Of a stretch of 64,000 nt of DNA, positions 4,653 through 19,254 are shown one piece after another. The translations under genes and the position numbers were made by a program. The stretch lies in contig NZ_JAUOTP010000006.1 in NCBI RefSeq assembly GCF_030546695.1, forward strand, positions 62,001-126,000, in the 5' to 3' direction. Within the stretch, counting starts at the first letter, position 1, and each line of letters begins with the position of its first letter. The notes under the pieces were generated by a model. The model did no database searches. It saw only the letters and a program-made list of their open reading frames with translations, and was not told the DNA's origin. This stretch comes from Sphingomonas natans. Lineage in GTDB: Bacteria; Pseudomonadota; Alphaproteobacteria; Sphingomonadales; Sphingomonadaceae.

Positions 4653-4753
4653 CCGCTCATCCTGAGGAGGGACTGAGCGAAGGCGAAGGCCCGTCTCGAA
4701 GGATCCTTCGAGACGCTGCTTCGACGGGCTCAGCAGCTCCTCAGGAAGAGCGG
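4653..4753. repeat. Complete palindromic repeat, family 1
   Basis: About 100 bp forming an imperfect inverted repeat. The left arm starts CCGCTCATCCTGAGGAG and the right arm ends with its near complement, with GGATCCTTC near the centre. It sits in the mreB-mreC gap. The same sequence recurs at 17448-17565 (complete) and 18077-18127, 18409-18459 and 18476-18527 (half copies). It could act as an mRNA hairpin between mreB and mreC. Confidence 0.85.
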
Positions 4754-16092: not shown

Positions 16093-17403
16093 ATGAGCAC
16101 CCAGCCCGCATCCGTCTCCGTCCAGCCCGACGGCTATTTCACCCAGTCGCTCAAGGACAAGGATCCTGCCGTATTCGGCGGCATCAGCCAAGAAATCACG
16201 CGCGAGAAGAAGCAGATCGAGCTGATCGCGTCCGAGAATATCGTCTCGAAGGCGGTGCTCGAGGCGCAGGGCTCGGTCTTCACCAACAAATATGCCGAAG
16301 GCTATCCCGGCAAGCGTTATTATCAGGGCTGCCACCCGTCCGACGTCGTCGAGCAGCTCGCGATCGATCGCGCCAAGGAGCTGTTCGGCTGCGGCTTCGT
16401 CAACGTCCAGCCGCATTCGGGCGCGCAGGCCAATGGCGCGGTGATGCTCGCGCTCACCAAGCCCGGCGACACGATCCTCGGCATGAGCCTCGATGCCGGC
16501 GGCCACCTCACGCACGGCGCGCGCCCGGCCATGTCGGGCAAGTGGTTCAATGCGATCCAGTATGGCGTCACCCGCGACACGCACCTGATCGATTATGATC
16601 AGGTCGAGGCGCTCGCCCGCGAGAACAAGCCCAAGCTAATCATCGCCGGCGGCTCGGCCTATCCGCGCCATATCGATTTCGCCCGCTTCCGCGCGATCGC
16701 GGACGAGGTCGGCGCGATCTTCATGGTCGATATGGCGCATTTCGCGGGCCTCGTCGCCGGCGGCACGCACCCGACCCCGTTCGGCCACGCGCATGTCGTG
16801 ACCACGACCACGCACAAGACGCTGCGCGGCCCGCGCGGCGGCATGGTCCTCACCGATGACGAAGCGATCGCCAAGAAGATCAATTCGGCCGTCTTCCCGG
16901 GCCTGCAGGGCGGCCCGCTGATGCACGTCGTCGCCGCCAAGGCGGTCGCGTTCGGCGAGGCGCTCCAGCCCGATTTCAAGAACTATGCCGCCGCCGTCAT
17001 CGCCAACGCGCAGGCGCTCGCCGCCCGCCTCAAGGCACGCGGCGCCGAGATCGTCTCGGGCGGCACCGACACGCACCTCGCGCTGGTCGATCTCTCGCCG
17101 CTGGGCGTCACCGGCAAGGATGCCGACGAGGCACTCGAGCGTTCGGGCATCACCTGCAACAAGAACGGCATCCCCTTCGATCCGCTCCCCCCGGTCAAGA
17201 CGTCGGGCATCCGCGTCGGCTCGCCCGCGGGCACGACGCGCGGCTTCGGCGTGGCCGAATTCGAGGAGATCGGCGACATGATCGCCGACGTGCTCGATGG
17301 CCTGCGCAAGAATGGCGAACAAGGCGACGCGCAGGTGGAGCAGGCCGTCAAGACGCGCGTCGAAGCCCTGTGCGACCGCTTCCCGATCTACCCGGAGCTG
17401 TAA
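16093..17403 (+). CDS. glyA: Serine hydroxymethyltransferase
   Basis: PLP enzyme converting serine and tetrahydrofolate to glycine and methylene-tetrahydrofolate in the cytosol. The 436-residue length is normal. The PLP lysine is in [14 protein letters not shown] (about residue 241), and the N-terminus carries [11 protein letters not shown] and [13 protein letters not shown], both diagnostic. It follows rpiB closely. The downstream gap to nrdR is filled by a complete family 1 palindrome that may attenuate or stabilise the message. Confidence 0.98.
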
Positions 17404-17447: not shown

Positions 17448-17565
17448 CCGCTCATCCTGAGGAGCCATTGAGCTTGCCGAAATGGCGTCTCGAAGGACAT
17501 GCACCACGGTGCGGATCCTTCGAGACAGGACTTCGACAAGCTCAGTCCTTCCTCAGGATGAGCGG
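17448..17565. repeat. Complete palindromic repeat, family 1
   Basis: An inverted pair of about 50-bp arms around CACCACGGTG. The outer ends read CCGCTCATCCTGAGGAG and the complementary CCTCAGGATGAGCGG. It lies between glyA and nrdR, ending 15 bp before the nrdR start. Confidence 0.88.
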
Positions 17566-17580
17566 TGGGTATGGAATTCG

Positions 17581-18042
17581 ATGCGCTGCCCCTTCTGCGG
17601 ACACTCCGATAGCCAGGTGAAGGACAGCCGCCCCGCGGAAGACGGGGCGGCGATCCGTCGCCGGCGCCAGTGCGAGAGCTGCGACGCGCGCTTCTCCACC
17701 TTCGAGCGCGTCCAGCTGCGCGAGTTGACCGTCGTCAAGAAGGACGCGCAGCGCCAGCCCTTCGACCGCTCCAAGCTGGAACGCGCCATCGAGACCGCCG
17801 CGCGCAAGCGCCCGATCGCGCCCGAGGAGATCGAACGCCTCGTCAGCCGCATCCAGCGCCAGTTCGAGACGAGCGGCGACAGCGAAGTCTCGGCGACGCG
17901 CATCGGCGAGGCGGTCATGGAAGGGCTCAAGCGCCTCGACAGCGTCGCCTATATCCGCTTCGCCAGCGTCTATAAGGACTTCCGCGAAGCCAAGGATTTC
18001 GAGGACTTCGTCGGCGCGGTACAGGCGGCGCGGGAGGAATAG
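17581..18042 (+). CDS. nrdR: Transcriptional repressor NrdR
   Basis: ATP/dATP-sensing repressor of ribonucleotide reductase genes, 153 residues. The N-terminal zinc ribbon is complete (MRCPFCGH and [14 protein letters not shown]), and the ATP-cone domain follows ([20 protein letters not shown] to about residue 135). The start is fixed by the zinc ribbon, which always opens the protein. It acts at NrdR boxes elsewhere, and none were seen in this window. It is downstream of glyA and upstream of the GIY-YIG/methyltransferase gene, with family 1 repeats on both sides. Confidence 0.97.
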
Positions 18043-18076
18043 GCGCCCCCTGCCCCACCCCCCACAACTCCTCCTC

Positions 18077-18127
18077 CCGCTCATCCTGAGTAGAGACTGA
18101 GCCCGGCGAAGGCTCGTATCGAAGGAC
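18077..18127 (+). repeat. Half copy of family 1 repeat, forward
   Basis: Begins CCGCTCATCCTGAG and ends GAAGGAC, 5 bp before the GIY-YIG start codon. It is in inverted orientation relative to the copy at 18409-18459, so the two bracket the GIY-YIG coding segment. Confidence 0.85.
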
Positions 18128-18132
18128 AGGCC

Positions 18133-19254
18133 GTGACCTTCCAAGCCTATCTTCTCCGCTGCGCCGACGGTCGCTATTATGTCGGCCATACGGACGATCT
18201 CGACCGCCGGGTCGCCGAGCATAATTCCGGGCTCATCCCGGGATATACGCAGATCCGCCGCCCCGTCGCGCTCGTCTGGACAGAGAATTTCCCCGATCGC
18301 GAGCAGGCCTTCGCGGTCGAGCGCCAGATCAAGGGTTGGTCGCGCGCGAAGAAGGAGGCGCTGATCGCGGGCGACTTCGGCGCGCTCCGTGATCTGGCCA
18401 AGCGGAGGGTCCTTCGAGACGCCACTTCGCCAAGCTCAGTGGCTCCTCAGGATGAGCGGGTCGGCGACTCTTTGTCCGCTCTTCCTGAGGAGGGACTGAG
18501 CTTGGGCGAAGGCCCGTCTCGAGGGACCCCCGCCATCGTCCTCGTCCGCCCCCAACTCGCCGAGAATATCGGCAAGGCCGCGCGCGCGATGCTCAATTTC
18601 GGGCTCACCGATCTGCGCCTCGTCACCCCGCGCGACGGTTGGCCCAACCCACAAGCCGGCCCCGCCGCCTCGGGCGCGGACAGCGTCATCGCCAACGCCC
18701 GCGTCTATGAAAGCGTCGCCGAGGCGGTCGCCGATCGCGCGCACGTCTTCGCCACCACGGTGCGCAAGCGCGGCGTCACCAAGCCCGTCGTCACCCCCGA
18801 ACAGGCCGCGAGCCTCGTCCACACCGAGCCCGGCGGCAGCGCGATCCTGTTCGGCCCCGAACGCTCGGGGCTCGAGACAGACGACGTCGCGCTCGCGCGC
18901 ACGATCATCACCGTGCCGATCAATCCCGAATTCGGCAGCCTCAACCTCGCCCAGGCGGTGATCCTCGTCGCCTATGAATGGTCGAAAGGCGAAAATCTCG
19001 CCTCGCCCCCCAGCGTCGACATCGATCCCCCCGCCCCGCAAGGCGAGCTCGAAGGCATGCTCGCGCAGCTCGACGTGATGCTGGAAGACTCCGGCTTCTT
19101 CTTCCCGCCCAGCCGCGTCGCGACCGTCAAGCGCACCTTGCGCACGATGCTGACCAAGCCCGCCTGGAACAGCCAGGAGGTGCGCACGATGCGCGGCGTC
19201 CTCTCCGCGCTCGATCGCCCGCGGCCCCGCCGGGGCGAGACCGCCCAAGATTGA
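18133..19254 (+). CDS. GIY-YIG nuclease domain fused to TrmJ-like RNA methyltransferase
   Basis: One uninterrupted 373-residue frame holds two proteins that are usually separate. Residues 1-92 are a small GIY-YIG endonuclease domain (UPF0213 type): YLLRCADGRYYVGHTDDLDRR, then VERQIKGWSRAKKEALI with the usual Glu. Residues about 93-132 are encoded by two palindromic repeats and look like low-value linker. Residues 133-373 are a SpoU/TrmJ-type 2'-O-methyltransferase: RPQLAENIGKAARAM, LFGPERSGLETDD, INPEFGSLNLAQAV. It probably modifies tRNA. A GTG start at 18133 fits. Whether a fused protein is made, or the methyltransferase starts from an internal TTG (about 18472), cannot be told. Confidence 0.85.
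   Translation: MTFQAYLLRCADGRYYVGHTDDLDRRVAEHNSGLIPGYTQIRRPVALVWTENFPDREQAFAVERQIKGWSRAKKEALIAGDFGALRDLAKRRVLRDATSPSSVAPQDERVGDSLSALPEEGLSLGEGPSRGTPAIVLVRPQLAENIGKAARAMLNFGLTDLRLVTPRDGWPNPQAGPAASGADSVIANARVYESVAEAVADRAHVFATTVRKRGVTKPVVTPEQAASLVHTEPGGSAILFGPERSGLETDDVALARTIITVPINPEFGSLNLAQAVILVAYEWSKGENLASPPSVDIDPPAPQGELEGMLAQLDVMLEDSGFFFPPSRVATVKRTLRTMLTKPAWNSQEVRTMRGVLSALDRPRPRRGETAQD
18409..18459 (-). repeat. Half copy of family 1 repeat, reverse, inside coding frame
   Basis: Reads GTCCTTCGAGACG to CTCAGGATGAGCGG on the plus strand, the reverse complement of the family consensus. It encodes part of the linker between the GIY-YIG and methyltransferase domains. Confidence 0.85.
18476..18527 (+). 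repeat. Half copy of family 1 repeat, forward, inside coding frame
   Basis: Begins CCGCTCTTCCTGAGGAGG and ends GAGGGAC. Together with the preceding reverse copy it forms a short palindrome with a 16-bp spacer, and encodes the linker just before the methyltransferase domain. Confidence 0.85.

Follow-up and report, generated by a model that had tools for sequence, protein, structure and literature searches.

Inverted REP-like hairpins on both sides of a small GIY-YIG nuclease gene that is fused in frame to trmJ in Sphingomonas natans

The DNA considered here (the window) is a stretch of 64,000 nucleotides from Sphingomonas natans, whose genome comprises 4.56 Mb in 13 contigs. Between nrdR and trmJ, it harbors a small GIY-YIG nuclease gene enclosed by two inverted hairpin repeats that resemble repetitive extragenic palindromes (REPs), and the frame of this gene runs on into a TrmJ-type methyltransferase. 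The elements of this REP-nuclease unit, followed by its neighbors, are located in the window as follows.

18076..18127, + strand: upstream REP arm, with the tag CCGCTCA, an outer stem TCCT/AGGA and a nested inner hairpin
18133..18408, + strand: GIY-YIG nuclease domain, 92 codons with a GTG start; Y6, Y16, R26, H30 and E63 present
18409..18460, - strand: inverted REP arm on the downstream side, read in frame within the linker
18476..18527, + strand: third REP copy, in the same direction as the first arm and also translated in the linker
18535..19254, + strand: portion of the fused frame that encodes the TrmJ/SpoU-type methyltransferase, with its stop
17450..17563, no strand assigned: ordinary REP doublet upstream of nrdR, an inward pair with no nuclease inside, used as a comparison case
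17581..18042, + strand: nrdR, with its stop 33 nt before the REP-nuclease unit
16093-17403: glyA, first in the order glyA, nrdR, REP arm, GIY-YIG, inverted REP, third REP, trmJ, rpsD

The name glyA is our assignment, in agreement with the annotated gene order of S. parapaucimobilis, and the gene after trmJ is presumably rpsD.

The two inverted arms, of 52 nt each, are 83% complementary and separated by 281 nt, and the GTG start of the nuclease (18133) lies 5 nt past the first arm. The initial annotation had described a repeat copy 5 nt before the nuclease start and a unit with terminal inverted repeats formed by the domain and its flanks; both descriptions are borne out by these coordinates. 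It had also traced the frame through two REP copies into the methyltransferase, and this 373-codon frame (18133-19254) is indeed stop-free across both downstream copies. Pfam analysis of the fused protein assigns residues 6-74 to GIY-YIG (PF01541, 8e-16; 58.6 bits for a cut-off of 22.6) and residues 135-281 to SpoU methylase (1.4e-22). The best NCBIfam match is TrmJ/YjtD (TIGR00050), at 167.1 bits, 0.05 under the cut-off of 167.15. Residues Y6, Y16, R26, and E63, which we take to be the catalytic positions of GIY-YIG, are invariant among 21 aligned relatives. The nuclease domain is related to UPF0213 proteins of solved structure (1zg2, E=2.4e-21; 1ywl, E=9.2e-19). In an AlphaFold model of the fusion, it displays a predicted local distance difference test (pLDDT) value of ~95, the linker (residues 94-128) falls below 50, and the TrmJ part, which is full-length for this type of protein, has Zymomonas TrmJ as its best solved match. 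With a predicted template modelling (pTM) score of 0.47, the relative placing of the domains is not fixed by the model.

The repeat itself is abundant. With at most one mismatch, CTCATCCTGAG occurs 10 times in the window, against 1.43 expected and with none of 100 shuffles as high, and GCTCATCCTGAG occurs 120 times in the genome, versus 5 for the reversed control. The 89 exact GCTCATCCTGAG copies include 33 inward pairs spaced by 85-159 nt (median 102), and the sole other inward pair of neighbors closer than 600 nt is that of the nuclease unit, at 367 nt. By this spacing, the unit resembles the REP doublets of the genome with a nuclease gene inside. At positions 4656-4750, the window holds one more inward pair with this repeat core. 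Rfam matches to miRNA families, far under their gathering scores, were dismissed.

Since REPs are common in this genome, the nuclease gene might simply happen to fall between two of them. This was examined in a family set of 199 genomes, 136 of which have a match to the nuclease domain (genomes and loci are cited below by G and L numbers). The 90 strong loci analysed, the window's copy included, comprise 65 stand-alone (solo) and 25 trmJ-linked genes. Bracketing is expressed as an arm score, obtained by aligning the 150 nt upstream of the gene in inverted orientation with the 150 nt downstream and taking the best alignment, with a threshold of at least 20. Inverted arms reach it in 57/65 solo and 12/25 trmJ-linked genes, against 21/1629 same-length windows in the same loci and 3/199 gene-like open reading frames (ORFs), or 0/124 when the flanks of these ORFs are clear of the unit (Fisher tests against the last group: 4e-40 for solo and 3e-11 for fused genes). 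The expectation that sphingomonad GIY-YIG genes are flanked beyond chance is thereby confirmed. Beyond the family set, arms are observed in 65/80 named relatives of a GTDB-scan set (80 out of 563 found) and in 20/28 scorable loci (of 30) of a class-level set, with 35/2601 control windows at the arm score for both; these sets partly overlap the family set (three of the 28 class-level loci, L236-L238, are repeats, and L159 and L203, among others, correspond to G174 and G143). Arms are present, among others, in Reyranella, Rhodospirillales, Maricaulaceae, Methylobacter, Aromatoleum, and two Dehalococcoidia metagenome-assembled genomes (MAGs), and absent in Thiobacillus, Herbaspirillum, a Myxococcota MAG, a Chloroflexi MAG, and another Rhodospirillales MAG, misbinning being possible for MAG contigs. 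Given the low counts in same-locus windows and gene-like ORFs, and the recurrence of this architecture in numerous relatives beyond the family, chance bracketing is so improbable that it was discarded.

One of the other GIY-YIG copies of the window's genome (L004) also reaches the threshold, at 22.0, and the catalytic positions are intact in 23-25 of the 25 fused copies. Plasmid and phage collections yielded 30 and 23 records, every one below 60% identity, so that carriage by plasmids or phages is not an evident main route. The glyA-nrdR-GIY-YIG-trmJ block of S. parapaucimobilis (L307) sits on a record called a plasmid (NZ_CP155752.1). In a Bacillus subtilis plasmid record (L308, NZ_AP028965.1; arm score 8.5), yazA (GIY-YIG) overlaps trmNF and rsmI, with RNA methyltransferases adjoining. 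Two PLSDB records, NZ_CP119142.1 and NZ_CP119140.1, are chromosome-sized (2.17 Mb) Neisseria gonorrhoeae sequences filed as plasmids.

Twenty distant GIY-YIG genes, from weaker matches of the family scan, were taken as a negative control and failed as such, since they are bracketed themselves: two geometries were tried for each gene, in a test lacking a matched control, and 20/20 attained the arm score in one or both. By a strict tagged-hairpin test, CGTC/TGTC hairpins stand on both sides of 10/20 of these paralogues, versus 0/20 nuclease-free trmJ genes. A 2013 survey reported that CGTC-tagged REPs predominate in Alphaproteobacteria and are without a dedicated transposase (PMC3733652). These are likewise hairpin REPs and are found here around GIY-YIG paralogues; the differences are that here they bracket GIY-YIG genes and that the window's own REP carries another tag.

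The arms around the nuclease genes follow a common layout: the tag CCGYTYR, a four-base stem, GAG, a loop, and the closing stem. Among all GAGCYTGTCGA cores, taken with pairing not required, 450/480 stem positions pair (shuffled mean 340), as do 213/225 for the GAGCGNAGTCGA loop type (shuffled mean 180), with 0/1000 shuffles as high in either case, related sequences entering these counts more than once. The arms are thus REP-like hairpins with covarying stems. Of the 60 loci with two arms found, 47 carry one stem type on both sides, and within this single family nine stem types each occur on both sides of at least one nuclease gene. The stem type tracks the clade of the nuclease. On a nuclease tree built from a short alignment (90 rows, 92 columns; 87 typed rows, 63 of them solo), it changes 27 times versus a shuffled mean of 51.0, and loop class changes 10 times versus 35.9, none of 200 shuffles being as low for either. 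With solo rows only, the figures are 19 versus 38.8 (lowest shuffle 33) for stem type and 6 versus 18.9 (lowest shuffle 16) for loop class. Paralogues also differ in type within single genomes, as in G168 (nested TCCT, GGCT, CCCT, TCCC). The covarying hairpin and its clade-specific pairing predict that a folded single strand is recognised by its own nuclease.

Dispersed copies accompany the cognate nuclease. Three REP types were counted by exact pattern in the same 199 genomes with a threshold of at least four copies, meant to cover the nuclease-flanking copies, which are included. Nested TCCT copies reach it in 10/12 genomes with the cognate nuclease versus 10/187 without, and GCCT copies in 8/10 versus 7/189. 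For TCCC, the values are 11/13 versus 13/186, the nuclease group containing all TCCC stems and the counted pattern the nine-base loop only. Within genomes possessing any strong nuclease, the association persists (10/12 versus 6/49 for nested TCCT, 11/13 versus 9/48 for TCCC, 8/10 versus 5/51 for GCCT; p<3e-5), and it holds across genera.

Comparison of congeners reveals occupied and empty sites. The solo unit L120 of G001 is present in G157 and absent in G095, where flanks matching at 92-93% have 47 nt between them; the solo unit L066 of G095 is absent in G001 and G157, which carry other REPs at the same place. Presence and absence at these two aligned sites would fit a mobile unit. Target duplication was not seen by eye in three empty-site alignments, no dedicated search having been made. 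L330 and L331 represent one intergenic region in which congeners differ in their REP families, resembling a hotspot for REPs.

The fusion to trmJ was followed in loci where the nuclease precedes trmJ, from sets chosen by likeness to the window's nuclease. The frame is common and stop-free in all 51 rows (49 without two known duplicates), with linkers of 69-297 nt, many of which are plainly translated REPs, such as VLRDEASPSSASPQDER. Linker lengths vary by whole codons in all 51 rows, and in-frame fusion looks constrained. The trmJ start span, taken to begin 25 codons ahead of the TrmJ core and to extend to the third codon after, is free of ATG and GTG in 26/51 fused rows; in the window, TTG is the sole start codon it contains, and in all 20 unfused loci read it contains an ATG, GTG, or TTG. 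In G028 and G171, which belong to the window's genus and are without the unit, the nrdR stop is overlapped by the trmJ GTG. The nrdR-trmJ junction thus exists empty in relatives and the fused arrangement is not universal. The idea that insertion beside the methyltransferase had created the fusion has to be corrected in that this is not a single accident, since all 51 rows are in frame and other genes are fused too. Prok-JAB is joined to GIY-YIG in L085, L107, and L111 (by Pfam) and in L093 and L110 (by eye), and these five protease fusions are in frame with REP-encoded linkers. PseudoU_synth_2 with S4, an RluD-like synthase, is found in L112 (Pfam) and L113 (by eye), alanine racemase in L090 (Pfam), and a long partner with no Pfam match in L121.

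TrmJ is present in 194/199 family genomes, with a strong-clade nuclease in front of it in 25. A TrmJ tree was assembled from these 25 fused rows, G196 not being counted as fused, and 38 empty rows, namely 20 high-scoring TrmJ loci and 18 added ones, 12 of the latter chosen because their genus contains a fused genome, a choice that increases the count of changes. The fusion is patchy on this tree: the fused/empty label changes 20 times (shuffled mean 19.7), and well supported branches force 11 or more of these changes. On the nuclease tree, by contrast, the fused copies group together (5 changes versus 22). Distances in the nuclease and in TrmJ are weakly correlated (r=0.21, 129/5000 permutations as high), and the nearest TrmJ and nearest nuclease coincide in just 4/25 fused loci. 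In approximately unbiased (AU) tests, a single clade for the entire set of fused nucleases is not rejected (p=0.13), and neither is a clade for each of two same-genus pairs (p=0.09 and 0.41). As these tests are non-significant, a clean claim of repeated independent fusion was dropped. They are in line with one ancestral fusion followed by many losses, rather than repeated insertion, as is G196 (L282), where a decayed GIY-YIG remnant precedes trmJ with an ATG in the former linker and looks like a stage of nuclease loss. The forced changes on the TrmJ tree, the rare agreement of nearest neighbors, and genus g94, where two different nuclease and REP types occupy the same place, argue against such an origin, which is a possibility at somewhat less than even chances and is compatible with other explanations.

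It may also be asked whether the fusion is functional in itself, with the GIY-YIG domain serving an RNA methyltransferase and the REPs merely giving the linker. The frame is preserved in all 51 rows, though not in S. parapaucimobilis; an RNA pseudouridine synthase is among the other partners; and the GIY-YIG gene of the Bacillus subtilis record overlaps trmNF and rsmI. Published fusions point the same way, GIY-YIG being joined in Lactobacillales to the COG4123 methyltransferase (PMC1564403). There, however, the methyltransferase is a class I enzyme in N-terminal position, whereas here it is the SpoU-family TrmJ, C-terminal to a largely REP-encoded linker. A dedicated role in RNA methylation is improbable in view of partners such as JAB protease and alanine racemase, the scatter on the TrmJ tree, the weak agreement of distances, and the small share of TrmJ genes preceded by the nuclease.

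The nearest known system is the Ssn nuclease with its Neisseria NTS repeats. Chenal et al. (2025) reportedly describe Ssn as a family of site-specific single-strand GIY-YIG nucleases with NTS repeats in Neisseria, where the enzyme is said to cut single-stranded DNA at the repeats, thereby tuning transformation or recombination. Ssn homologues are said to have their own target sequences, with many dispersed repeats cognate to the nuclease. The Neisseria gonorrhoeae homologue lies among CGTCATTCCCGC repeats, which we take to be NTS. The present system likewise associates a small GIY-YIG nuclease with many dispersed cognate repeats (three REP types). It differs by its clade (39% identity in an alignment spanning 84% of the query), by its CCGYTYR-tagged REP with regular inverted bracketing and inward doublets, by in-frame fusions to trmJ and other genes, and by an activity that is here predicted only. 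Rickettsia palindromic elements occur inside genes and resemble the present arms as palindromic repeats translated in frame within a protein; here, the repeat forms an interdomain linker beside a nuclease. REP-associated tyrosine transposase (RAYT) genes are flanked by their associated REPs, with inward doublets and a REP type tied to the enzyme (PMC3116915, PMC3733652). The same three traits are found here, but RAYTs of such REPIN (REPtron) systems are HUH tyrosine transposases with GTAG-tagged REPs, whereas GIY-YIG and SpoU are the sole domains detected here and the tag is CCGYTYR. In the titles and abstract starts listed, neither REP-bracketed GIY-YIG genes nor a fusion of GIY-YIG to TrmJ came up; the Ssn work may already describe part of the pairing.

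Taken together, the unit consists of a small gene for a GIY-YIG nuclease flanked by inverted REP-like hairpins, which the nuclease most likely recognises. By analogy with Ssn and with RAYTs and their GTAG REPs, the nuclease would probably nick the single-stranded hairpin of its own REP, and subsequent copying or recombination would yield inward REP doublets and, occasionally, a nuclease-bearing unit in other positions. The congeners suggest that, between nrdR and trmJ, the unit replaced the usual trmJ start. The nuclease frame continues through the 3' REP into trmJ, which would make the methyltransferase a C-terminal part carried on a REP-encoded flexible linker, and such a tie to a useful gene would shield the nuclease from deletion.

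Several observations weigh against this explanation. Paired arms are undetectable in 13/25 trmJ-linked copies; L003, another GIY-YIG copy of the window's genome, scores 16.0, below the threshold; and the fused copy L080 has altered catalytic residues and no arms. In S. parapaucimobilis (L307, NZ_CP155752.1), the nuclease and trmJ overlap out of frame. Many REPs occur without a matching nuclease (69 in G094, 63 in G027, 39 in G061), the 69 nested copies of G094 standing alongside a nuclease of a different type, and G048 and G104 have a nested-type nuclease and zero nested copies. The p values of the copy counts, below 1e-8 for each of the three types, are too small since the genomes are related, and the match between REP type and clade is partly descent, the arms and gene being co-inherited in related genomes. 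Finally, no transposition product was seen at the compared loci. Of the initial annotation's proposal, a REP-like family mobilised by a dedicated GIY-YIG nuclease, the putative dedicated pair is supported by the bracketing and the cognate copies; mobilisation would fit the presence and absence at two solo sites, but neither a transposition product nor a target duplication was seen at the sites compared.

Alternatively, the nuclease might not move REPs at all and act as an Ssn-like cutter of incoming or exposed single-stranded DNA at REPs, tuning transformation or recombination, with REPs spreading by other routes and gathering at the nuclease gene through its effect on recombination there or through a role in regulating it. 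Ssn of Neisseria is said to act in this way, its gonococcal homologue lies among repeats, and several genomes carry REPs without the nuclease. By itself, such a role leaves unexplained the regular inverted bracketing and the presence or absence of whole units in congeners, and it is rather unlikely. On these comparisons, cutting that would spread REPs is modestly preferred over cutting that would regulate DNA uptake or recombination.

The pairing suggests a second nuclease-plus-repeat partnership beside the RAYT transposases. More tentatively, small GIY-YIG nucleases might be the missing dedicated partners of RAYT-less REP classes (CGTC- and CCGTTCG-tagged). They would then make up a second class of REPtrons, of independent origin, that copies REP doublets and persists by in-frame fusion to housekeeping genes. 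This bears on how the abundant alphaproteobacterial hairpin repeats spread, CGTC REPs having been reported in 2013 as being without a dedicated transposase (PMC3733652). With the repeat-bracketed nuclease, a defined enzyme and its putative substrate become available for experiments, and the nine stem types within one family would serve as natural variants. The in-frame fusions present REPs becoming protein linkers, and suggest a route by which a selfish nuclease may tie itself to a useful gene.
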